Positions 7,180 to 30,874 of a DNA stretch of 64,000 nucleotides are shown piece after piece. Origin of the DNA: Streptomyces curacoi (GTDB taxonomy: Bacteria > Actinomycetota > Actinomycetes > Streptomycetales > Streptomycetaceae); the NCBI RefSeq assembly GCF_001513975.1, contig NZ_KQ947986.1, positions 1 through 64,000 of the forward strand. Direction: 5' to 3'. The notes under the pieces were generated by a model, which was given only the letters and a program-made list of their open reading frames with translations, made no database searches and had not been told where the DNA came from. A program made the translations under genes and the position numbers. Numbering within the stretch: the stretch's first letter is position 1; the number at the start of each line of letters is the position of its first letter.

Positions 7180-8408
7180 CGGACGGCTCCCGAGAGTGAG
7201 GGGACGGAGGAGACGGCGCTGTAGGCGCGGGTGACGCCGTCGGCCACGCGGTCCCAGGTGTAGCGGGCCATGACACGGCGCCGCCCGGCCGTGCCGTAGC
7301 GGGCGAGCAGTCCGGGGTCGGCCAGGAGGCGGCGGATGGTGCCGCTGATGTCGTGGTCGTCGTCGGGCGGGACGAGGACGCCCGTGATGCCGTCCACAAC
7401 GGTGTCGAGCTGCCCGCCGACGGCGGTGGCGAGGACGGGCGCGCAGCAGGCCATGGCCTCGACCGGCACGATGCCGAACGGCTCGTAGCGGGGCAGGGAC
7501 AGCACGAGGTCCGCGCTGGACATCAGCTCGGGCATCTGCTCCCGGCTCACCCCGCCCAGGAGCGTGACCCGGTCGGCGACCCCGCACTCGTCGGCGATCG
7601 CGCGCAGCCGCTCGGCCTCGGGTTCGGCGAGGAGCAGGGCGGCCTCGGGCCCGCCGGCGATGAGGAGTTCGGCGTCGGGGACGTCGGCCAGGGCGCGGAT
7701 GGCGCGGTCGAAGCCCTTGCGGGGCACGAGCCGGCCGACGGCGAGCAGCCGCCGGGGCGCGGACGCCGGCCTGCGGGCCGCGGCGACCGGCGCGAACTGC
7801 ACGGGGTCGACCCCGCAGGGGACGACGGAGATGTGCCGCCGTGACAGTCCCATGGCCTCCAGTTCGGCCACCTCGTCCTTGCAGGTCGCGATGATGCGGC
7901 TGCACTCCCGGCCGACGGCGGTCTCGATCGCGATGCGGTCGGGCGGGCTGGTGTCGGCGGCGCCCTGGTAGCGCCTCTTGACGGTGCCGAGCGCGTGGTA
8001 GGTCTGCACGACGGGCACACCGAGGCCGCGCGCGCCGGCCAGGGCGGCCCAGCCGGACATCCAGAAGTGGGCGTGTACCACGTCGGGCGGTTCGGTGGCC
8101 CACTGCCGGGCCAGGAAGTCCCCGAACTCCGGCATGTACGGCGGCAGTTCGTCCTTCGGTATCGGAGCCGCCGGTCCGGCGGGCACATGGACGACCCGGA
8201 ACCCGTCGGGTGTGGTGACCCGGTCCGGCAGCCGGGGGTCGTCCCGCCGGGTGTACACGGTGACCTCGTGCCCCCGGCGGACCAGTCGCCCGGCGAGTTG
8301 CGCCACGTACACGTTCTGCCCGCCCGCGTCCGGCCCGCCGAGCGCGGCCAGCGGACTGGCGTGCTCGGAGACCATGGCGACACGGCCGGCCGAGGGGTGG
8401 GTGCTCAT
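7176..8408 (-). CDS. Family 4 glycosyltransferase
   Basis: A 410-residue GT-B enzyme. The N-terminal loop ALGGPDAGGQNVYV, the acceptor-domain VHAHFWMSG, the hinge VGRLVPRKGFD and the catalytic-type E-x7-E motif in YEPFGIVPVEAM identify GT4. The extended GGQNVYV loop resembles the sucrose-phosphate-synthase/MshA branch, which uses nucleotide-activated donors. Start is the ATG at 8406-8408, overlapping the preceding gene's stop by 4. Likely cytosolic or membrane-peripheral. Donor unknown; a heptose or hexose is equally possible. Confidence 0.88.
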   Translation of the reverse strand: MSTHPSAGRVAMVSEHASPLAALGGPDAGGQNVYVAQLAGRLVRRGHEVTVYTRRDDPRLPDRVTTPDGFRVVHVPAGPAAPIPKDELPPYMPEFGDFLARQWATEPPDVVHAHFWMSGWAALAGARGLGVPVVQTYHALGTVKRRYQGAADTSPPDRIAIETAVGRECSRIIATCKDEVAELEAMGLSRRHISVVPCGVDPVQFAPVAAARRPASAPRRLLAVGRLVPRKGFDRAIRALADVPDAELLIAGGPEAALLLAEPEAERLRAIADECGVADRVTLLGGVSREQMPELMSSADLVLSLPRYEPFGIVPVEAMACCAPVLATAVGGQLDTVVDGITGVLVPPDDDHDISGTIRRLLADPGLLARYGTAGRRRVMARYTWDRVADGVTRAYSAVSSVPSLSGAVR

Positions 8409-9367
8409 CGGGTGACCTCCTTGATCAGGCGTTCCCAGTCGTCCCGGAAACGCCGCTCTCCGTAGCGGGCCTGTACCGCGGCCCTGGCGGCCTCCCCTGT
8501 CAGCCGGGCGTCCGCGGGATCCGCGAGGAACCCGCGCATGGCGTCCTGCAGTACGTCGAGCCGGTTCGAGACCACCCCGGCTCCCTCCGGGACGGCCTCG
8601 CGCACCTCGGTGGTGTCCAGTGCCACGACGGGCATCCCGAGGAACATGGCCTCCAGCAGGGACAGCCCGAGGGACGTCCACCGGACGGGGTGGAGGTACA
8701 TGCGGCAGCGGGCCATCGCCGGGTGCAGGCTGCTCTGGGGCAGGTCGCGGCTGCGGAGGCGGTCGGGCGGCAGTCCGAGGTGGTCCCCGAGCCCCTCGGT
8801 ACGCATGCCGAAGACGTCCAGCGGCACCGCGCGGGCGAACGTCGGCAGCAGGTCGGTTCCCGTGGTACGGCCGCGCCGTACGGGCTCGTTGACGACGACG
8901 GCGGCGCGTGGCTCGTCGCCGGTCCACAGGTGTCCGGGGTCGATGATGCCGTGCTCGATCACCGTGGTCGGGGCCCGGCCGTTGTCCCACATCAGCCGGT
9001 TGAAGTGGGTGACGTGCACCAGGGTGATGTCGGTCCGGTCGGCCAGCGGGTGCCGGGTGTCGGTGGGCGTCTCGTGCGGGCTGTTGTGCTCGACGTAGAC
9101 GGCGGGCACGTCGATGCCCGGGCGGCGGCCGGTCCACCGCCGGGCCAGTTCGATCTCGTGCGGCCGTTGCAGCACCATCAGGTCGATGTCCGCCTCGCGC
9201 AGTTCGGCGGGGCTCAACTCCCGTACCGTGGGCGGCCATTGCCATGTTCTGGCCCGCCCCAGACCGTCGGGGCCCCGGTCGGGGGTGACGGGGACGAGGA
9301 AGGTGTGGGGGCCCTGGACGAACGACGTCAGCCAGGAGCCGTGCACATGCCAGACAAGGACGTTCAT
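8405..9367 (-). CDS. Glycosyltransferase, GT-B fold
   Basis: A 320-residue protein beginning NVLVWHVHGSWLTSFVQGPH. It keeps YVEHNSPHETP in the middle, VIEHGIIDP at the hinge and SLGLSLLEAMFLGMPVVALDT in the donor domain, where the E-AM-G pattern of GT4-type enzymes is visible. No membrane segment. Family-typical proteins of this kind occur in actinobacterial sugar clusters, but I cannot assign a donor. The overlap with the GT9 gene upstream (9364-9367, ATGA) keeps it in the coupled chain. Confidence 0.82.
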   Translation of the reverse strand: MNVLVWHVHGSWLTSFVQGPHTFLVPVTPDRGPDGLGRARTWQWPPTVRELSPAELREADIDLMVLQRPHEIELARRWTGRRPGIDVPAVYVEHNSPHETPTDTRHPLADRTDITLVHVTHFNRLMWDNGRAPTTVIEHGIIDPGHLWTGDEPRAAVVVNEPVRRGRTTGTDLLPTFARAVPLDVFGMRTEGLGDHLGLPPDRLRSRDLPQSSLHPAMARCRMYLHPVRWTSLGLSLLEAMFLGMPVVALDTTEVREAVPEGAGVVSNRLDVLQDAMRGFLADPADARLTGEAARAAVQARYGERRFRDDWERLIKEVTR

Positions 9368-10371
9368 GTGGTCTCCCCCATGAGTTTCTGCACCGCGGCC
9401 ACGACGTCGTGGGCCGTGACCTCGTCGAGGCACGGATGGCCGGGCACGGGACAGCGCAGGGCCCTGGTGTCGGCACAAGGCGCGTGCTGGTCGCCGAGGA
9501 GCACGCTCGGAACGCCGTAGGGCGCCCAGCGCTCCGCCGGGACGACGGGAGCGAACAGGGCCACGACCGGCGTGCCGACGGCCGCGGCCAGGTGGGTGGG
9601 GCCGGTGTTGCCGCACACCACGACGTCGGCGGTGCGCAGGACCCCGGCGAGGGTGCGCGGGTCGGTCTTGCCGCCGAGGTCGACCGCGGTGTCGCCGCTG
9701 ACCTTCCGGGTGAGGCCGGCCTCGTCGGGGCCGCCGGTGACGACGACCCGGTGGCCGGCGTCGGCGAGCAACTCGACGGCCTCCGCGCAGCGTTCGGGGC
9801 TCCAGGCGCGGGCGGGCGCGCTGGCGCCGGGGTGCAGCACGAGGTAGGGGCCGTTGCCGGTCAGCGCGATGGTGTCGGGCGGCGGCAGCACGCGCAGCCG
9901 GCCGTCGTCCCCCGGGTGCGGCAGGAAGCCCATGGCGGCGGCGGTGTCCAGGGCGGCCTCGGCCTCGTGGCGGCCGGGCAGCCGCCGGTGCCGTACGTCG
10001 AGGAGGCGGCCGGGATGGTCGACGCTGTCGGCGCCGATGCGCGGGACGCCGGACAGGCGCAGCAACAGCGCGGTGGGCAGGGGGCTTTGATGGAACGAGG
10101 TGAGCACGAGCGCGGCGTCGAACGCCGCGTCCCGCAGGCGCCGTACGAGGCCGTCGACGTCGGCCTCCTGGACGGTGGGCGGGTCGAAGCCCTCCCACGG
10201 GGCCTCCCACACGATCACGTCGTCCACGCCGGGCAGCAGCCGCGCGGCGGGTTCGCCGCGGGGGCCGCACAGCATCGTCACCTGGGAGGAGTGCGCCGCC
10301 ACCGCCCGGACCGCCGGTCCGGCGAGCAGCACGTCGCCGAAGCTGTCGAGGCGTACGACCAGTGTCTTCAC
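9364..10371 (-). CDS. Family 9 glycosyltransferase (heptosyltransferase-like)
   Basis: A 335-residue GT9 enzyme and the second of the locus. The N terminus MKTLVVRLDSFGDVLLAGP is the classical heptosyltransferase opening, including the conserved Asp of the GD pair. The donor half has LVLHPGASAPARAWSP, VVVTGGPDE and VVCGNTGPTHLAAAVGTPVVALFAPV. The C-terminal segment contains three Cys (CADTRALRCPVPGHPC) in the position where such enzymes often carry a Cys/His cluster. Being next to gmhB, it is probably the first heptosyltransferase, but the order of action is not readable from sequence. Confidence 0.9.
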   Translation of the reverse strand: MKTLVVRLDSFGDVLLAGPAVRAVAAHSSQVTMLCGPRGEPAARLLPGVDDVIVWEAPWEGFDPPTVQEADVDGLVRRLRDAAFDAALVLTSFHQSPLPTALLLRLSGVPRIGADSVDHPGRLLDVRHRRLPGRHEAEAALDTAAAMGFLPHPGDDGRLRVLPPPDTIALTGNGPYLVLHPGASAPARAWSPERCAEAVELLADAGHRVVVTGGPDEAGLTRKVSGDTAVDLGGKTDPRTLAGVLRTADVVVCGNTGPTHLAAAVGTPVVALFAPVVPAERWAPYGVPSVLLGDQHAPCADTRALRCPVPGHPCLDEVTAHDVVAAVQKLMGETT

Positions 10372-10925
10372 GAGCGACCACCCCGCGTCTCGGTGAGGAG
10401 CCGCCGGACCGCCGTGAGCAGGTCGGGGGCGGTGCTGGGTGCTGTCTCGACCTCCCCCGGCAGGGTGGCCGCGTTGGGCACGAGCACGCCCCGGGCGCCC
10501 GCCGCGCGCGCCGCCTGGACGTCGGTCGCGATGTCGCCGATCACCACGCAGTCCGCCGGGGCCACGCCCAGGCGCCGGGCGGCCTCGATGACCAGTCCCG
10601 GGCGGGGTTTGCGGCAGCCGCAGCCGGCCTCGGGCGAGTGCGGGCAGTAGAGCCAGGTGTCGAGGCCGCCGAGCAGGGTGTTCGCGCGGTCGTTGACGCG
10701 TCGGACGTCGGTGTCCGTGAGCAGTCCGCGGCCGATGCCGGACTGGTTGCTGACCACCCCGGTCGGGATACCGGCGGCGCGCAGCAGGTCCAGTGCCCGC
10801 CGGGCGCCGGGCAGCGGGCGTACGCGGGCGGGGTCGCCGTTGTAGGGGACATCCTCGACGAGGGTTCCGTCGCGGTCGAAGAGAACGGCGGCGACGCGCC
10901 CGACGTGTGGGGTCGGCGAGTTCAC
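10368..10925 (-). CDS. gmhB: D-glycero-D-manno-heptose 1,7-bisphosphate phosphatase
   Basis: A 185-residue HAD phosphatase. The nucleophile motif FDRDGTLVED (DxDGT), SNQSGIGRG, and the zinc-binding loop CPHSPEAGCGCRKPRPG (Cys-x-His...Cys-x-Cys followed by RKP) are specific for GmhB and histidinol-phosphate phosphatase relatives. The heptose genes around it settle the choice. It removes the 7-phosphate between the two HldE reactions. Start: GTG at 10923-10925 overlapping the upstream stop as GTGA. The length is that of the family. Confidence 0.9.
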   Translation of the reverse strand: MNSPTPHVGRVAAVLFDRDGTLVEDVPYNGDPARVRPLPGARRALDLLRAAGIPTGVVSNQSGIGRGLLTDTDVRRVNDRANTLLGGLDTWLYCPHSPEAGCGCRKPRPGLVIEAARRLGVAPADCVVIGDIATDVQAARAAGARGVLVPNAATLPGEVETAPSTAPDLLTAVRRLLTETRGGRS

Positions 10926-22037: not shown

Positions 22038-24275
<2,238 letters not shown>

Positions 24276-24284
24276 CTAGGTGGA

Positions 24285-24734
24285 TCACAGCGCTCGGGGT
24301 GCGCTGTTGGCGGTGGAACAGTCGGGGCACAGGCCCCAGTAGATGACCTCGGCCTCGTCGATGGCGAAGCCGTGGTCGTCGGACGCGGTCAGGCAGGGCG
24401 CTTCGCCGACCTCGCAGTCGACGTCGGCGACGGCACCGCACGACCGGCAGACGACGTGGTGGTGGTTGTCACCGACGCGCCCCTCGTACCGGGCCGGGCT
24501 GCCGGCCGGTTCGATACGGCGCACGAGTCCCGCCGCGGTGAGTGCGTGGAGGCCCTCGTACACGGCTTGAAGCGAGACATGACCTACGCGATCACGCACT
24601 CCGGAGGCGATGGCCTCGACGCCGAGGTGGTCACCGGCCCGGACGGTCTCCAGCAGCGCTACACGCGCCGCGGTCACCCGCAGGCCGGCACCGCGCAGCT
24701 CCTCGGCGGGGGCAGGAGTCTGGGATGCGGTCAT
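24285..24734 (-). CDS. furA: Fur-family redox regulator of katG
   Basis: A 149-residue repressor. An N-terminal winged helix (LRVTAARVALLETV, HVSLQAVYEGLHALTAAGLVRRI) is followed by the metal/dimer domain with NHHHVVCRSCG and a C-terminal CPDC, giving the usual two Cys pairs. In mycobacteria and Streptomyces, FurA/FurS/CatR proteins repress their own operon with katG and release it under peroxide. The AT-rich repeats directly upstream are the expected operator. Gene order and spacing to katG support the assignment; the symbol is used in this sense. Confidence 0.9.
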   Translation of the reverse strand: MTASQTPAPAEELRGAGLRVTAARVALLETVRAGDHLGVEAIASGVRDRVGHVSLQAVYEGLHALTAAGLVRRIEPAGSPARYEGRVGDNHHHVVCRSCGAVADVDCEVGEAPCLTASDDHGFAIDEAEVIYWGLCPDCSTANSAPRAL

Positions 24735-25230: not shown

Positions 25231-26607
25231 ATGCTCGGAAGACATACCGCGGCTGGTCGCCGCATCGCCCTGACCGCCCTCGGCACCCTCGTCCTCACCG
25301 GGGTCACCGCGGCAGCGGCGGCCGCGCCGCCACCCAAACCCGCGCCCGCGTCCGACGCCGCGCAGACGGTCGGTGCCGACCGGCCGCCCGCGGCGCTGCT
25401 GCGCGCCCTGGAACGTGACCTCAAGCTCAAGCCGGGCCAGGCGGCCGAGCGGTTGGTCAACGAGGCCGAGGCGGGCGTGCGTGCCGGCCGTCTCCGCAAC
25501 GCCCTGGGCCAGCGCTTCGCGGGAGCCTGGGTGCGCGGGGCGACCTCCGCCGAGCTGACCGTCGCGACCACGCGTGCCGCCGACGTGTCCGCCATCCGCG
25601 CCCAGGGCGCGAAGGCCGCGGTCGTCAAGCGCCCGCTGAGCGAGCTCCAGGCCGTCAAGAAGAAGCTGGACCGGGCCGCCGCTCGCATCGGGGCACGCAA
25701 CACGCCGGTCTGGTACGTCGACGTTCCGGCGAACCGGGTCGTCGTCCAGGCGACCCAGCGGTCGGCCGCCACCGCCTTCATCGAGGCCGCCGGCGTCGAG
25801 AGCAAGGGCGTGGGCGTGCGTGTGTCGACGGTACGGCCACGGCTGCTGGAGGACCTCATCGGGGGCGACGCCTACTACATCGAGAGCTCCGCCCGCTGTT
25901 CGATCGGGTTCTCCGTCACCAAGGACCAGCAGCAGGGCTTCGCCACGGCGGGCCACTGCGGCAGCCAGGGGGACAACACCGCCGGCGCCAACATGGCCGA
26001 ACAGGGCTCGTTCCAGGCCTCCACGTTCCCGGGGAAGGACATGGCCTGGGTGTCCGTCAACAGCAGCTGGACCGCCACGCCCGACGTGGACGGGGAGGAC
26101 GGCAAGCGGACGCAGATCACCGGCTCGGTCCAGGCGCTCGTCGGGGCGTCGATCTGCCGTTCCGGCTCCACCACCGGATGGCACTGCGGCACCATCAAGC
26201 AGCACGACACGAGTGTCAGCTACTCCGAGGGCACCGTCGACGGCGTGACCGAGACGACGGTGTGCGCCGAGCCGGGTGACTCCGGCGGCCCGTACGTCTC
26301 CGGCTCCCAGGCACAGGGTGTGACCTCCGGTGGCTCCGGTGACTGCACGGACGGCGGGACCACCTTCTTCCAGCCGATCAACCCGATCCTCAGCGACTTC
26401 GGCCTCGTGCTGAAGACCGCGTCCGACCAGGCGGGCACGCCCGCCCCGGAGGACAACGGGGCGGCACAGGCATGGGCCGCGGGCCGGGTCTACGAGGTCG
26501 GTGCCACGGTGACCCACTCGGGCGTGCGTTACCAGTGCCTGCAGAGCCACCAGGCCCAGGGTGCGTGGTCGCCGGGCTCCACTCCGGCCCTATGGCAGCG
26601 GTTGTAG
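25231..26607 (+). CDS. Secreted streptogrisin-type serine protease with C-terminal chitin-binding-like module
   Basis: A 458-residue preproenzyme. Residues 1-33 are a signal peptide (twin Arg, LTALGTLVLTGVTAAAAAAP). A propeptide with LLRALERDLKLKPGQAAERL follows to about residue 210. The mature chymotrypsin-fold domain starts near DLIGGDAYY, with the triad H242 (TAGHCG), D270 (GKDMAW) and S351 (GDSGGP). Residues 410-458 are a CBM5/12-like module (AWAAGRVYEVGATVTHSGVRYQC). This layout matches streptogrisin C (S1E family). Start: ATG with GGAGGTACATCGC; the frame is open 100 codons further up without support. Exported and self-processed; it degrades extracellular protein. Confidence 0.93.
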   Translation: MLGRHTAAGRRIALTALGTLVLTGVTAAAAAAPPPKPAPASDAAQTVGADRPPAALLRALERDLKLKPGQAAERLVNEAEAGVRAGRLRNALGQRFAGAWVRGATSAELTVATTRAADVSAIRAQGAKAAVVKRPLSELQAVKKKLDRAAARIGARNTPVWYVDVPANRVVVQATQRSAATAFIEAAGVESKGVGVRVSTVRPRLLEDLIGGDAYYIESSARCSIGFSVTKDQQQGFATAGHCGSQGDNTAGANMAEQGSFQASTFPGKDMAWVSVNSSWTATPDVDGEDGKRTQITGSVQALVGASICRSGSTTGWHCGTIKQHDTSVSYSEGTVDGVTETTVCAEPGDSGGPYVSGSQAQGVTSGGSGDCTDGGTTFFQPINPILSDFGLVLKTASDQAGTPAPEDNGAAQAWAAGRVYEVGATVTHSGVRYQCLQSHQAQGAWSPGSTPALWQRL

Positions 26608-26678: not shown

Positions 26679-27761
26679 TCACTCCCCCGCGAGCAGCGCG
26701 TACGCGGTGGGGACGAAGGAGTCACGGGCGCGGAAACGGCGCGTGCAGAGCCCGACCAGGGCGGTGCCCGTGTCGGGGCGGAAGCCCAGGAAGGCCTGCT
26801 GGCCGAGGGTCGCCCCGCTGTGGAAGTACATCGGTCCGCCGTTCGTGGGGTGCCTGAACCACGTCACCGTGTGGACGTGCCGGTGTCCGAGGCCGCGCCG
26901 GAGCACGGGTGTACGCACCGCCCGCAGTGCGCCGGGCAGCGGGGAGGCGGCCGGGTCGAGGTGGGCTTCGAGGAAGGTCAGCAGGTCGTGCGGGGTGGCG
27001 CGGAGCGCACCCGCCGCCTGGAAGCCGCCGGCGTCGAAGGCGGGGGTGGGCGTGCGACCGTCCTTGCCGTGCCCGACGGCGTCGGTCTTGGGGTCCTCCG
27101 CCCGCAGGGCGGTGCCGGTCAGGCCGAGCGGTCGCAGGACGTGTGCGCCGAGCAGTTCCTCCCATGCCGTGCCGGTGGCCGCGGCGATGGCGTGGCCGAG
27201 TACGGCGACGCCGAAGTTGGAGTAGTACCACCGGGTGCCGGGCCGCTGCCGGGGGCGCCGGCGCAGGAAGGCGTCGGTCACGGCCTCGGCGGGATAGCGG
27301 CCGTAGGGGTTGGTACGCCAGGCGGGCAGCGCCCGTAGGTAGAAGTCGGCGGGCAGGGCGGGCAGTCCGGCCGTGTGCGTGATGAGGTGGGCGAGTGTCA
27401 CGGGGTCCGCGCCGGTTCGCCGCCCCGGGTCCAGGCAGGCGGCGGCCGGTTCGCCCCCGGAGAGCAGGCCGCGCTGGATGAGCTGGGCCAGCAGCAGTCC
27501 GGTGAAGGTCTTGGAGGCCGAACCTATCTCGTAGCGCAGGTCCCCCCGGGGGACCGGCGGGGGCGGGGCGGTGCCACCGCATATCAGGGTGCGGCAGCCC
27601 GACCGCGAGACGGCGAACACGACGTCGGGCGCGTCGACGGCGTCGACGGCACGCTCCAGCCGCTCCCGCAGCGTCTCGTCCGGGCCGGGGACGCCGTCCG
27701 CACCGGCCTGTTCCGTGTCGTCGGCCAGGTCGCCCGGCCAGGGCGTGGACCGGCCGGTCAT
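26679..27761 (-). CDS. Cytosolic serine hydrolase of class C beta-lactamase fold (last gene of unknown operon)
   Basis: A 360-residue S12-type hydrolase. Catalytic motifs: SASK at 81-84 (SxxK), YSN at 180-182 (YxN) and HSG at 314-316 (KTG equivalent), with LITHTAGLP at 126-134. Unlike secreted beta-lactamases and DD-peptidases it has no signal peptide or lipobox; its first 50 residues are charged. It is therefore intracellular, and its 4-base overlap with the DUF6895-like gene places it in a biosynthetic rather than resistance context. Esterase, peptidase or amidase activity is possible. Confidence 0.88.
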   Translation of the reverse strand: MTGRSTPWPGDLADDTEQAGADGVPGPDETLRERLERAVDAVDAPDVVFAVSRSGCRTLICGGTAPPPPVPRGDLRYEIGSASKTFTGLLLAQLIQRGLLSGGEPAAACLDPGRRTGADPVTLAHLITHTAGLPALPADFYLRALPAWRTNPYGRYPAEAVTDAFLRRRPRQRPGTRWYYSNFGVAVLGHAIAAATGTAWEELLGAHVLRPLGLTGTALRAEDPKTDAVGHGKDGRTPTPAFDAGGFQAAGALRATPHDLLTFLEAHLDPAASPLPGALRAVRTPVLRRGLGHRHVHTVTWFRHPTNGGPMYFHSGATLGQQAFLGFRPDTGTALVGLCTRRFRARDSFVPTAYALLAGE

Positions 27762-28678
27762 GAGGTGGCGTGCGTCAACGCGCTGAGGGCGCGGGAGGTG
27801 GCCAGCACCGAGGCGAAGGCGGCGACGAGCGTCGGGTGGTAGACGATGTCGAACACCTCGTCGGGCTCGCCCTCGGGCATGGTCCGCACGGCGGGCATGG
27901 CGCCGTCGGGCTGCTGCGCGGCGGCGAAGCCCTCCCAGGCCCGTTCGTCCAGGGTGGGGCGGGGCAGGCAGGCATCGACGACGAGGAGTTCGCCGAGCAG
28001 GTCCCAGCGCTTCAGGTCCAGCCAGTCGTCGATCCAGACCGGCAGCCAGGTGGCGAGGTAGTCGGCGATGTCCGGCGGCAGGCCGTCGGGGCGCTCTCCC
28101 CAGTCGGTGAGGTGGAACACCGCGTGGGTGACGTCGTAGGCGATGTGCCCGCTGACCGTCCAGGGCTCGGGTGTGCGGGCCAGCCAGGTCGGGCCGACGA
28201 GGTCCGCCTCGGGCGGGTGGGGCGTCAGGCCGAAGCGGCGCTGGAACGCGGCCAGTCCGAGGCGCCGGGTCGGGTCCAGTTCGAGGGCCGACCAACTCCT
28301 CAGCCGGTGGTAGAGGACGGTGGCACGCTCCACCTCGGGTTCGCTGTACCCCATTTCCTTGTACGGCAGGTACACCTCGAACGGGATGGGCGAGAGCGGC
28401 TCGATGCGCTGGCCGCGCACCAGCATGCGGCCGCCGTCCAGGGTGTGCCGCCAGGTGTGGTCCAGCAGCCGGCGCGCCAGGTCGGCCTGCCGTGATCCGG
28501 CCACCCCTTCGCGGAACAACACCTGGCAGATCAGGGCCAGTTCGCCGATCGGTTTGAAGCGCTCCAGGAAGCCGACCTCCGGATCGACGTCGGGCTCCAG
28601 GCGGAATCCGTCGCGATGGGACCACAGCCATTCCAGGGCGCGGACGCCGACGGTGTGCATCAGACGGGTGTCGGTCAT
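27758..28678 (-). CDS. DUF6895-like protein, copy 2
   Basis: A 306-residue soluble, Trp-rich, helical protein. Shared with the copy encoded upstream: KPIGELALICQV near residue 43, TRRLGLAAFQRR near 138, HAVFHLTDWGERPDGLPPDIADYLATWLPVW (positions about 185-215; note H-x3-H then TDWG), LLGELLVVDACLP, and YHPTLVAAFA near the end. I associate these with DUF6895 from memory. The paired His and Asp could be catalytic or metal binding. Both ends overlap neighbours by 4 bases. No function known to me. Confidence 0.8.
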   Translation of the reverse strand: MTDTRLMHTVGVRALEWLWSHRDGFRLEPDVDPEVGFLERFKPIGELALICQVLFREGVAGSRQADLARRLLDHTWRHTLDGGRMLVRGQRIEPLSPIPFEVYLPYKEMGYSEPEVERATVLYHRLRSWSALELDPTRRLGLAAFQRRFGLTPHPPEADLVGPTWLARTPEPWTVSGHIAYDVTHAVFHLTDWGERPDGLPPDIADYLATWLPVWIDDWLDLKRWDLLGELLVVDACLPRPTLDERAWEGFAAAQQPDGAMPAVRTMPEGEPDEVFDIVYHPTLVAAFASVLATSRALSALTHATS

Positions 28679-29679
28679 CCGGGCACTCCTTGTCCGCCGT
28701 ACCGGTTGTGTATGCCGTCCAGGTGCGGTCCGCGGCCGTCGCCGCCGGTGCCGTCGCGCTCGCCGGTGAGGCGGTTGACGGTCTGTGCCGCCGCGAAGGC
28801 GGCCATCAGGGTGGAGTGGTAGCACCGCAGGAAGTCCGGCTCCTCGTCCGCTCCGGCAGCGTCCTGTGGGGCCTGCTCCGGGAGCGCGCCGGAGTCGTAC
28901 TGCGCGCGGGCGATGCGCGTCCACGCGTCCTGCAGGGCGGCGGGGTCGGGCGGGTCCGGCAGGCTCGCCGCCACGATCAGCAGTTCGCAGCTCAGGTCCC
29001 ACATCCCGGCGTCCAGGCAGGTGTCGAGCCAGGGCGGCAGCCAGTGGGCCAGGTAGGCGGCCAGGTCCGCGGGGACGCCGGCGGGGGTGCGGCCCCAGTC
29101 GGTGAGGTGGAAGACGACGTGGGTGAGCGCGTATCCCGAGGAGCGCTCGAACGTCCATGGTTCCGGCAGCCCGCCCAGCCAGGTGCGCCGCAGTGCCTGC
29201 GCGGCCTGCTCCGGCCGGTGGATGCCGCTGCGCCGCTCGGCGCGCAGGACGCCGAGCCGGCGGGTCGGTTCCTGCTCGGTGAGGCGCCAGCCGCGGGTGC
29301 GGGCCGTCGTGGCGGCCGCGGCCTCGTACCCGGGGTGCCTGAGCCCGGCCGCGGCGAAGACGGAGTAGATCTCCAGGGGGTAGGTGGCGAAGGGCTCCAG
29401 CCGCTGGAGCCGGAGGAGGAGTTCGCCCCGGCCGGTCTGCTGCCAGGCGAACCGCAGCAGGTCGGACGCGCAGGCGTACAGCGGGTCCGACGGCGGGGTG
29501 TGCGCGCGAACGCTCGTGCAGGTCTGGGCCAGTTCCCCGAGCGGTTTCCAGCTGGTGTCCACGTGGCCGTCCGCGGTGAGCGCCTCCTCGCCCAGGGCGA
29601 AGTCGCCGCGGTGCGCAGACAGCCAGGCGAACGCGGCGGCCCCCACCTCCCGGATCTCCCTGACGCCCATGGCCGTCAT
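28675..29679 (-). CDS. DUF6895-like protein, copy 1
   Basis: A 334-residue paralogue of the next gene: KPLGELAQTCTSV near 46, PTRRLGVLRAERR, HVVFHLTDWGRTPAGVPADLAAYLAHWLPPW, LSCELLIVAASLP and YHSTLMAAFAAAQ occupy the same order. The overall divergence is high while the HLTDWG block is nearly invariant, so this block is the likely functional core. It carries about 30 extra disordered C-terminal residues (GERDGTGGDGRGPH). Start: ATG at 29677-29679 overlapping the previous stop. Two diverged copies suggest a heterodimer or two sequential steps. Confidence 0.8.
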   Translation of the reverse strand: MTAMGVREIREVGAAAFAWLSAHRGDFALGEEALTADGHVDTSWKPLGELAQTCTSVRAHTPPSDPLYACASDLLRFAWQQTGRGELLLRLQRLEPFATYPLEIYSVFAAAGLRHPGYEAAAATTARTRGWRLTEQEPTRRLGVLRAERRSGIHRPEQAAQALRRTWLGGLPEPWTFERSSGYALTHVVFHLTDWGRTPAGVPADLAAYLAHWLPPWLDTCLDAGMWDLSCELLIVAASLPDPPDPAALQDAWTRIARAQYDSGALPEQAPQDAAGADEEPDFLRCYHSTLMAAFAAAQTVNRLTGERDGTGGDGRGPHLDGIHNRYGGQGVPG

Positions 29680-30386
29680 ACGAACGCTCCGGCCGCCCGC
29701 ATGACCCGGGCCGCCTGCACCTGCAGGGCCACACGCGGGTCACTGCCGCCCATCAGCTCCACGAAGTCGAGGCCCGCCTCAAGCCCTAGGGTCTCGGGCA
29801 CCTCGGGGAGCAGGGTGAGCCAGCGTCCGGCTCCGGCTGCCTGCTGCCAGTCCCTGCGGCGCACCGCCCGTACGAAGCCGCGGGCCACGTCGACCGGGCG
29901 GCGCCGAGCCGCACGGGCCACCGCGCAGTCCTCGCCGGGCACGGCGAGCGGGGCGAGGACCGCGAGCTGGTGCGTCAGCACCTGCCAGGTCGCCTCGTCG
30001 AGCCAACCGGCGTCGGGTTCCGCGGCCTCCTGCACGGCGGGCGAGCCGGTGAAGGGCGGGTCGAGCCGCGCCAAGGTGCGACTCATGCCCCAGTGGCTCC
30101 ACTTGACGGTGGGGCCCGCGTCGGCGCGGGGCGGGAACGCCTCCACCGTCGCCCGGAACGCGGTGAGCGCCTCCGGGGCCGGGGGGACGGGGAAGAGCAC
30201 GTGCGGCAGCAGCGTGTCCGCTCCCAACACCCGTACGGCCGCGAGGGCGAGGCTGCCCTCCGGGTCGTCCACCGCTCCCGTGCCGGACAAGCGCACGTGG
30301 TCTCCGCCACGAAGGGCGGAGACCACGTCGGACGCAAGGTCCTGCACCGCGCCCTGCAAGAGAGCCGAAGTGCCTGACTGCTCCAT
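29676..30386 (-). CDS. Unknown 236-residue protein of the DUF6895-like operon
   Basis: A soluble, mostly helical protein without a recognised domain. It starts with a Thr/Ser-rich helix (MEQSGTSALLQGAVQDL), has a central VKWSHWGMSRTLARLDPPF and a helical C-terminal half with an Arg cluster (ARAARRRPVDVARGFVRAVRRRDW). No signal peptide, no membrane segment, no nucleotide-binding motif seen. It lies 21 bases after the small peptide gene and overlaps copy 1 by 4, so it belongs to the operon. It might be a carrier-binding or scaffolding partner; this is a guess. Confidence 0.7.
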   Translation of the reverse strand: MEQSGTSALLQGAVQDLASDVVSALRGGDHVRLSGTGAVDDPEGSLALAAVRVLGADTLLPHVLFPVPPAPEALTAFRATVEAFPPRADAGPTVKWSHWGMSRTLARLDPPFTGSPAVQEAAEPDAGWLDEATWQVLTHQLAVLAPLAVPGEDCAVARAARRRPVDVARGFVRAVRRRDWQQAAGAGRWLTLLPEVPETLGLEAGLDFVELMGGSDPRVALQVQAARVMRAAGAFV

Positions 30387-30407
30387 CAGCCGCTCCCGTC
30401 GGTCCGC

Positions 30408-30593
30408 TCAGCCCTTCTTGGGGCGAGGAGTCGGCGGGGACAGGAACAGCTTGAGGTCTGCGGAGAGGAGCGCCAGCCCGGCGCACTCCCGGCTGTCACG
30501 GTAGACGCCGTCGGACTCGACAGGGTCAAGTGCCGCCTCTAGGTCGGTCCGGACGCCCGTTATGTCCTCGATCGCCTTGTCCATGGAAGGCAT
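30408..30593 (-). CDS. 61-residue peptide, first gene of the DUF6895-like operon
   Basis: A short peptide: acidic helical first half (MDKAIEDITGVRTDLEAALD), a single Cys at about residue 37 in SRECAGLALL, and a tail with five prolines ending in basic PKKG. Start: first of two nearby ATGs, because AGGAG lies 8 bases before it. It could be a precursor peptide with leader and core, a small regulator, or a structural subunit. No typical RiPP leader motif (no GG, no repeated Cys/Ser/Thr core) is present. The 281 bases upstream are unusually AT-rich and must hold the operon promoter. Confidence 0.65.
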   Translation of the reverse strand: MPSMDKAIEDITGVRTDLEAALDPVESDGVYRDSRECAGLALLSADLKLFLSPPTPRPKKG

Positions 30594-30874
30594 ATCACCA
30601 TCTCCTCTGGGTCAGCCATAGCCTTCACACCTCAGAGCACCACATGGTCACAAAAAGCGCATCTTTTCCCAATAAACCCGCATGTCACTGATTCGGCATT
30701 TTTACTGAGCCGCCAGGGTTCCTCACTGCCGAGCGAAGGACGGAACCTGGGCGAACTGTCCTGTGGCAGGAGCCCCTTGGAGGACGTACGTCAACAGCTC
30801 GCCACGGCGACGACCTCGCTGAAGTGCGCGAGCGCGCCGATGAGCCGGGGCGCTCCCACCCTCGACGGTCGCCG

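Follow-up and report, generated by a model that had tools for sequence, protein, structure and literature searches.

In the literature that we searched, as far as its text was available, epimerization is the only function found for a protein of the DUF6895 family: one member is reported to act as an epimerase during the modification of a lasso peptide (Shi et al., ACS Catal. 2026, 16, 1757; cited in PMC13352647). Here we describe a five-gene operon in a 64,000-nucleotide stretch of Streptomyces curacoi DNA (contig NZ_KQ947986.1, positions 1 to 64,000; referred to as the window). The operon encodes a 61-amino acid peptide (P0001), a 236-amino acid protein (P0002), two DUF6895 paralogues (P0003 and P0004) and a hydrolase of the S12/beta-lactamase fold (P0005). 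At a probability of about 0.55, we read it as a pathway of the ribosomally synthesized and post-translationally modified peptide (RiPP) type, in which paired DUF6895 epimerases and a cytosolic S12 enzyme cutting at a D-residue would yield a Pro/Lys-rich product. The likeness to the enzyme of Shi et al. lies in the shared Pfam family and in a lasso-cluster DUF6895 protein among our loci (L131), which keeps the candidate residues of P0003 and P0004. As far as that reference permits the comparison, the operon differs in having two paralogues, an S12 enzyme, P0002 and an unrelated precursor, and in having neither a lasso peptidase nor a lasso cyclase. Another epimerase, MslH of the lasso peptide MS-271, resembles the DUF6895 pair in the task we propose, inversion of a residue in a ribosomal peptide (PMC10406935), and is compared by task only; it differs in being described, in the available text of that paper, as a metal-dependent acid/base enzyme.

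The closest described counterparts of P0005 are ClbP, alkaline D-peptidase and the enzyme of PDB entry 3wwx, which share its S12 fold and its SxxK and YxN motifs. ClbP is periplasmic and membrane-anchored (PMC9889268), whereas P0005 has no export signal or membrane domain and its proposed substrate is a ribosomal peptide. The penicillin-binding-protein (PBP)-type thioesterases SurE, PenA and WolJ are likewise stand-alone enzymes of secondary metabolism, related to penicillin-binding proteins and concerned with D-residues (PMC11735501). They differ in acting on nonribosomal peptides and in carrying a second, lipocalin-like domain, which P0005 lacks, its PF00144 match (181 bits) covering residues 37-358 of 360.

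The gene set is conserved far beyond chance, with the same genes in the same order at 74 loci and a peptide whose amino acids are kept as its codons vary. From an even sample of 150 Streptomyces genomes, loci were fetched and classed by gene content, and DUF6895 scored above the cut-off in 72. The five-gene form occurs in 47 of the 150 genomes (the window's own included) and a sister four-gene form, consisting of a peptide, a P0002-like protein, one DUF6895 protein and an S12 enzyme, in 19; the rest of the 72 have other kinds of DUF6895 locus. A scan of species genomes with P0003 yielded one weak fragment (L077) and the 74 Streptomyces loci (L003-L076), which agree in gene order except where a contig ends or a gene is interrupted. 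DUF6895 was present in one of six genera in an order-level sample of 198 genomes, and no other genus exceeded the DUF6895 cut-off in a phylum-level sample of 296. The operon appears to have been inherited vertically at one chromosomal site in a large clade.

P0002-like, DUF6895 and S12 genes are all present at every sampled locus with a long enough contig. The sequence-only reading of the window had staked its case on the peptide and hydrolase accompanying the DUF6895 pair, and they do: of the 47 genomes with the five-gene pair, none lacks the peptide, and the hydrolase is missing only at contig ends. An independent search with the peptide returned exactly the same 47 genomes of the 150 as those closely matching P0002, always adjoining P0002 and never alone. 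When loci first scored as peptide-less were re-read, the peptide ORF (open reading frame) was present in L149, L200, L205, L223 and L230; in L213 the gene is present with a frameshift in its Pro codons, and L233 stops at a contig edge. The arrangement by which a RiPP pathway is recognized, a short ribosomal precursor beside modifying enzymes with which it is co-inherited, is thus found here, as peptide, P0002, DUF6895 and S12 share genomes. On this comparative genomic evidence, RiPP-type modification of the peptide is very likely.

To describe the peptide, we compared 94 peptides of the five-gene form. The N-terminus (approximately the first 20 residues) is variable and is followed by a conserved middle block, LDPxExDGxxRDSRxCAxLAL, then by a variable linker of 4-5 residues and an almost invariant C-terminus, LLLSPPTPRPKKG. 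Within this C-terminus, the P, P, R, P and K of SPPTPRPK are invariant despite synonymous codon variation. The peptide is therefore not uniformly conserved along its length, as had been predicted from the window alone, but the conserved leader and variable core expected in the same prediction are reversed, since the C-terminus is the near-invariant part. Such segmented conservation fits a precursor with a recognition part, a linker and a fixed product, although the pattern leaves the product part undefined. Peptides of the four-gene form are laid out in much the same way but end differently, in LLLSPKEPKEPRGK or a sequence like it. In two of them (L136 and L144) about 20 extra residues extend beyond an SSNPKK/SANPRR motif, and one genome carries two precursor genes in tandem (L148).

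Both paralogues match PF21836 over their full length (300.8 bits for P0003 and 283.6 bits for P0004, against a cut-off of 23.8), are 40% identical to each other and are the only two DUF6895 matches in the 8.4 Mb host assembly. The AlphaFold model of P0004 is all-helical (predicted local distance difference test score, pLDDT, 92.4; predicted template modeling score, pTM, 0.91). VIA-align related it to alpha/alpha toroids at Z 13-17, including squalene-type cyclases, GH105 and GH88 hydrolases, AprG and N-acetylglucosamine 2-epimerase (2gz6; Z 13.1, root-mean-square deviation 4.4, 265 aligned). Deriving a chemistry from this fold was considered and rejected, as many toroid enzymes tie near these values, and a PDB sequence search with P0003 gave nothing credible. 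Among 38 DUF6895 rows from all settings, K42, T184-H185, F188, G194, D226 and H281 (P0004 numbering) recur with few exceptions; K42, H185, D226 and H281 are all kept in P0003, P0004 and the lasso-cluster protein of L131. The HLTDWG core, put forward as almost invariant before any homologues were collected, characterizes in its entirety the S12-linked branch. Across all DUF6895 proteins the constant part is TH..F.....G, usually with a D preceding the aromatic residue. The tree separates paralogues 1 and 2 into two groups, each spanning species, which indicates that the genus has maintained both genes together for much of its history; the single DUF6895 protein of the four-gene form branches as the sister of paralogue 2.

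DUF6895 genes adjoin at least four unrelated kinds of precursor. At L131, a divergent DUF6895 gene lies downstream of a lasso peptidase and a lasso cyclase. At L132 (8193-16563), the gene belongs to a class I lanthipeptide cluster with LanB, LanC and a gallidermin-type, planosporicin-like precursor (..ITSISYCTPGCTSEGGGSGCSHCC), and L145 was assigned to the same kind of cluster from its position and tree placement. The DUF6895 members of lanthipeptide clusters lack K42; their presence at L132 and L145 suggests that a lantibiotic of this kind may contain D-residues or be altered in its backbone in some other way. Seven genomes (L124-L129 and L140) combine two DUF6895 genes with a radical-SAM (S-adenosylmethionine) enzyme, a glycosyltransferase-like protein, a transporter, a prolyl oligopeptidase and a peptide of 38-42 amino acids, for example MPENTN..EDEDIEVVAHSEDEEAEAGCIVNNSSDLS at L124 (3590-11875), the one of these seven loci covered by a Pfam scan. 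In the first DUF6895 protein of the radical-SAM loci, Gln replaces H281 and, in two cases, H185 is also lost, so one partner of this pair may be non-catalytic. At L119, L134 and L138 (~8000-10000), DUF6895 is extended by about 270 residues without a Pfam match and stands beside a protein of 39-83 amino acids (..LDEVAGYVLAWEKYVLVVA..). L130 (7732-9148), where a divergent DUF6895 gene directly follows the gene for an 84-amino acid peptide containing LHILCCNEYG, is a possible further RiPP type. Because these settings share a ribosomal peptide, the family is most naturally seen as one of peptide-modifying proteins. Together with the co-occurrence and the segmented conservation described above, the DUF6895 genes in recognized RiPP clusters support the small peptide-modifying pathway that the sequence-only reading had suggested for the window.

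The motifs SxxK, YxN and HSG, claimed earlier for a hydrolase without an export signal, are represented in P0005 by SASK, YSN and HSG, and the same motifs occur in most of 109 homologues. P0005 has no signal peptide or membrane stretch and, like its homologues, no hydrophobic N-terminal stretch. Its PDB relatives of known function include ClbP (E 4e-14), the S12 peptidase 3wwx (E 3e-13) and alkaline D-peptidase (E 1e-11). ClbP and the 3wwx enzyme are D-stereospecific. The same property is documented for alkaline D-peptidase, a D-stereospecific endopeptidase (PMC4570186). It is the pairing of a proposed DUF6895 peptide epimerase with a hydrolase from a family containing D-peptidases that leads to the D-residue hypothesis. 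P0001 and P0002 have no Pfam or NCBIfam match, and P0002 has no PHROG match. The AlphaFold model of P0002 is all-helical (pLDDT 75, residues 1-40 unreliable); this model and the missing family match are equally compatible with a divergent and with an absent winged-helix RiPP recognition element. Foldseek and VIA gave armadillo repeats as the best match to this model, at a Z of 7.4, which is within the range of common helical arrangements; we therefore rejected any assignment beyond 'helical-repeat-like'. A PDB sequence search with P0002 found nothing credible.

In the pathway that we propose, the 61-amino acid peptide would be the precursor, with the middle block as its recognition part and LLLSPPTPRPKKG, or a part of it, as the product. 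Helical P0002 would probably bind the precursor and offer it to the enzymes, a guess based on its position and exclusive company. The DUF6895 toroid enzymes would then invert at least one alpha-carbon of the peptide by removal and return of a proton, the conserved His, Lys and Asp being candidates for the acid/base roles; that there are two such enzymes suggests two sites or a heterodimer. Finally, the cytosolic S12 enzyme would recognize the D-residue made by DUF6895, cut through a serine acyl-enzyme and free the C-terminal peptide. By analogy with the one published enzyme of the family, epimerization by the DUF6895 proteins is probable, while D-specific action of the S12 enzyme, suggested by its relatives, is tentative and falls slightly short of even odds. 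The function given to P0002, the S12 step and the limits of the product are all hypothetical.

Several observations weigh against this reading. The predicted toroid architecture is common and gives no chemistry, and in the tree the DUF6895 proteins of the operon are distant from the lasso-cluster member, which sits on a long branch. By name, the top PDB matches of P0005 are beta-lactamases, and the S12 family also takes in esterases as well as beta-lactamases. Antibiotic-type RiPPs do not usually have a core that varies so little, and no exporter or immunity gene is consistently linked to the operon across related loci. At one four-gene locus (L118, ~10438-10470, minus strand), the peptide gene is cut to MLTQESRK while the P0002-like, DUF6895 and S12 genes are retained; this remnant reflects either a recent deletion or an assembly fault. 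One rival reading is a RiPP pathway in which DUF6895 performs other peptide chemistry, for instance elimination, cyclization or a side-chain reaction, and the published epimerase is unrepresentative of the branch. The toroid neighbors do include terpene cyclases, unsaturated-glycan hydrolases and the transaldolase AprG, and one partner of the radical-SAM pair has lost H281 and sometimes H185, yet P0003, P0004 and the lasso-cluster member have these K, H, D and H residues in common, and the available literature offers no family function besides epimerization. We consider such a change of chemistry unlikely.

Also on the unlikely side, and distinctly so, is a RiPP pathway in which the S12 enzyme acts as a cyclase, passing an acyl-enzyme formed at the D-residue to an amine within that peptide and so closing a ring head-to-tail or through a Lys side chain. 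The S12 fold and cytosolic location of P0005 would suit this role, as would the invariant Lys close to the peptide C-terminus as a possible nucleophile. The PBP-type thioesterases offer a parallel, being stand-alone relatives of PBP transpeptidases that require a D-residue at the C-terminus (PMC11735501). However, P0005 is a single-domain protein without their lipocalin-like second domain, and hydrolysis is the commoner activity among S12 enzymes. The near-invariant C-terminus and the apparent vertical inheritance at one site, both housekeeping-like features, and the lack of a linked exporter could instead mean that the 61-amino acid protein is a stable small subunit or regulator acting with P0002 and DUF6895, with the S12 enzyme working on an unrelated metabolite. 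This we regard as improbable, because the N-terminus and linker vary, a precursor gene has been copied in tandem at L148 and DUF6895 elsewhere adjoins recognized RiPP precursors and enzymes. A toxin-antitoxin or anti-phage defense module would likewise have a small first gene, tight overlaps and a presence in only part of the genus, but the operon has no PADLOC or PHROG match, its chromosomal position is shared within the clade and no signs of mobile elements were seen, which makes this explanation highly implausible.

The proposal from the window alone that five genes are coupled by overlaps, with one 21-base gap, agrees with the five minus-strand ORFs and their junctions as we find them: the gap separates the peptide and P0002 genes, and at each of the other three junctions the genes overlap by the four bases ATGA. 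The peptide ATG is preceded, at a distance of 8 nt, by the ribosome-binding site AGAGGAG (30602-30608). A TTGAA-aagt box occurs about 100 nt upstream of the peptide start in 65 of 74 related rows, and the window copy has CCGAATCAGTGA instead. The lasso hallmarks (an Asn-synthase-type cyclase and a transglutaminase-type peptidase) are absent among the operon genes and their conserved neighbors. By Pfam, no LanB/LanC or LanM/LanKC/LanL synthetase is found among the operon genes, such enzymes being found only at other DUF6895 loci.

Coordinates of the operon features in the window, with the basis of each assignment
Feature	Position	Strand	Basis
P0001, 61-amino acid precursor-like peptide	30408..30593	-	ORF and ribosome-binding site; upstream of a P0002 homologue in 47/150 Streptomyces genomes
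Codons for LFLSPPTPRPKKG, the near-invariant C-terminal segment and proposed core or recognition motif	30411..30449	-	94 five-gene peptides
P0002, 236-amino acid all-helical protein, proposed precursor-binding partner	29676..30386	-	AlphaFold; intact copies confined so far to these operons
P0003, DUF6895 paralogue 1, proposed peptide epimerase	28675..29679	-	PF21836 E 1.4e-89; own tree group; candidate catalytic residues kept
P0004, DUF6895 paralogue 2, proposed peptide epimerase	27758..28678	-	PF21836 E 2.4e-84; alpha/alpha toroid model; tree sister of four-gene DUF6895
P0005, S12/beta-lactamase-fold hydrolase, cytosolic, proposed D-stereospecific peptidase or transpeptidase	26679..27761	-	PF00144 E 3.7e-53; SxxK, YSN, HSG

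Convergent with the operon, the window encodes what appears from its sequence to be a secreted trypsin-like serine protease (25231-26607), a homologue of which lies next to 73 of 119 loci, most of them in the close clade. This protease and a second conserved flanking protein were considered as pathway members and rejected, as they flank many close-clade loci and not the distant ones; we take them to mark a shared chromosomal position. Near a homologue of the same protease, one genome without a DUF6895 match (G009) contains a degenerate P0002 remnant (L178, 6225-6332) and has apparently lost the operon. Elsewhere in the window (22038-24734), a catalase-peroxidase gene with a Fur-family-like regulator gene upstream has the appearance of the usual KatG/FurA pairing.

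A literature search with the core motif found no paper, and we found none describing this gene set in the literature searched. New here are the extent of the operon, the nearly fixed C-terminus of the peptide, the four-gene sister form, the RiPP clusters in which the family occurs and its link to an epimerase. Either form of the gene set is present in roughly 40% of the sampled genomes, in the intensively mined genus Streptomyces, and has no Pfam description beyond a DUF. If our reading is true, the operon represents an additional, common RiPP family whose product hardly varies, which would suggest a physiological rather than a weapon-like role. A bolder version, speculative and in our estimate doubtful, is a new RiPP class with handedness as its maturation signal: the DUF6895 pair would write a D-residue, a D-specific S12 enzyme would read it, and the Pro/Lys-rich product, released or cyclized, might serve as an internal signal or cofactor-like molecule in about one third of Streptomyces species. 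The proposed pathway would also couple a recently recognized epimerase family to a stereospecific peptidase and could help to place D-residues in peptides. For DUF6895 itself, genes beside several unrelated kinds of precursor give the family a wider role.

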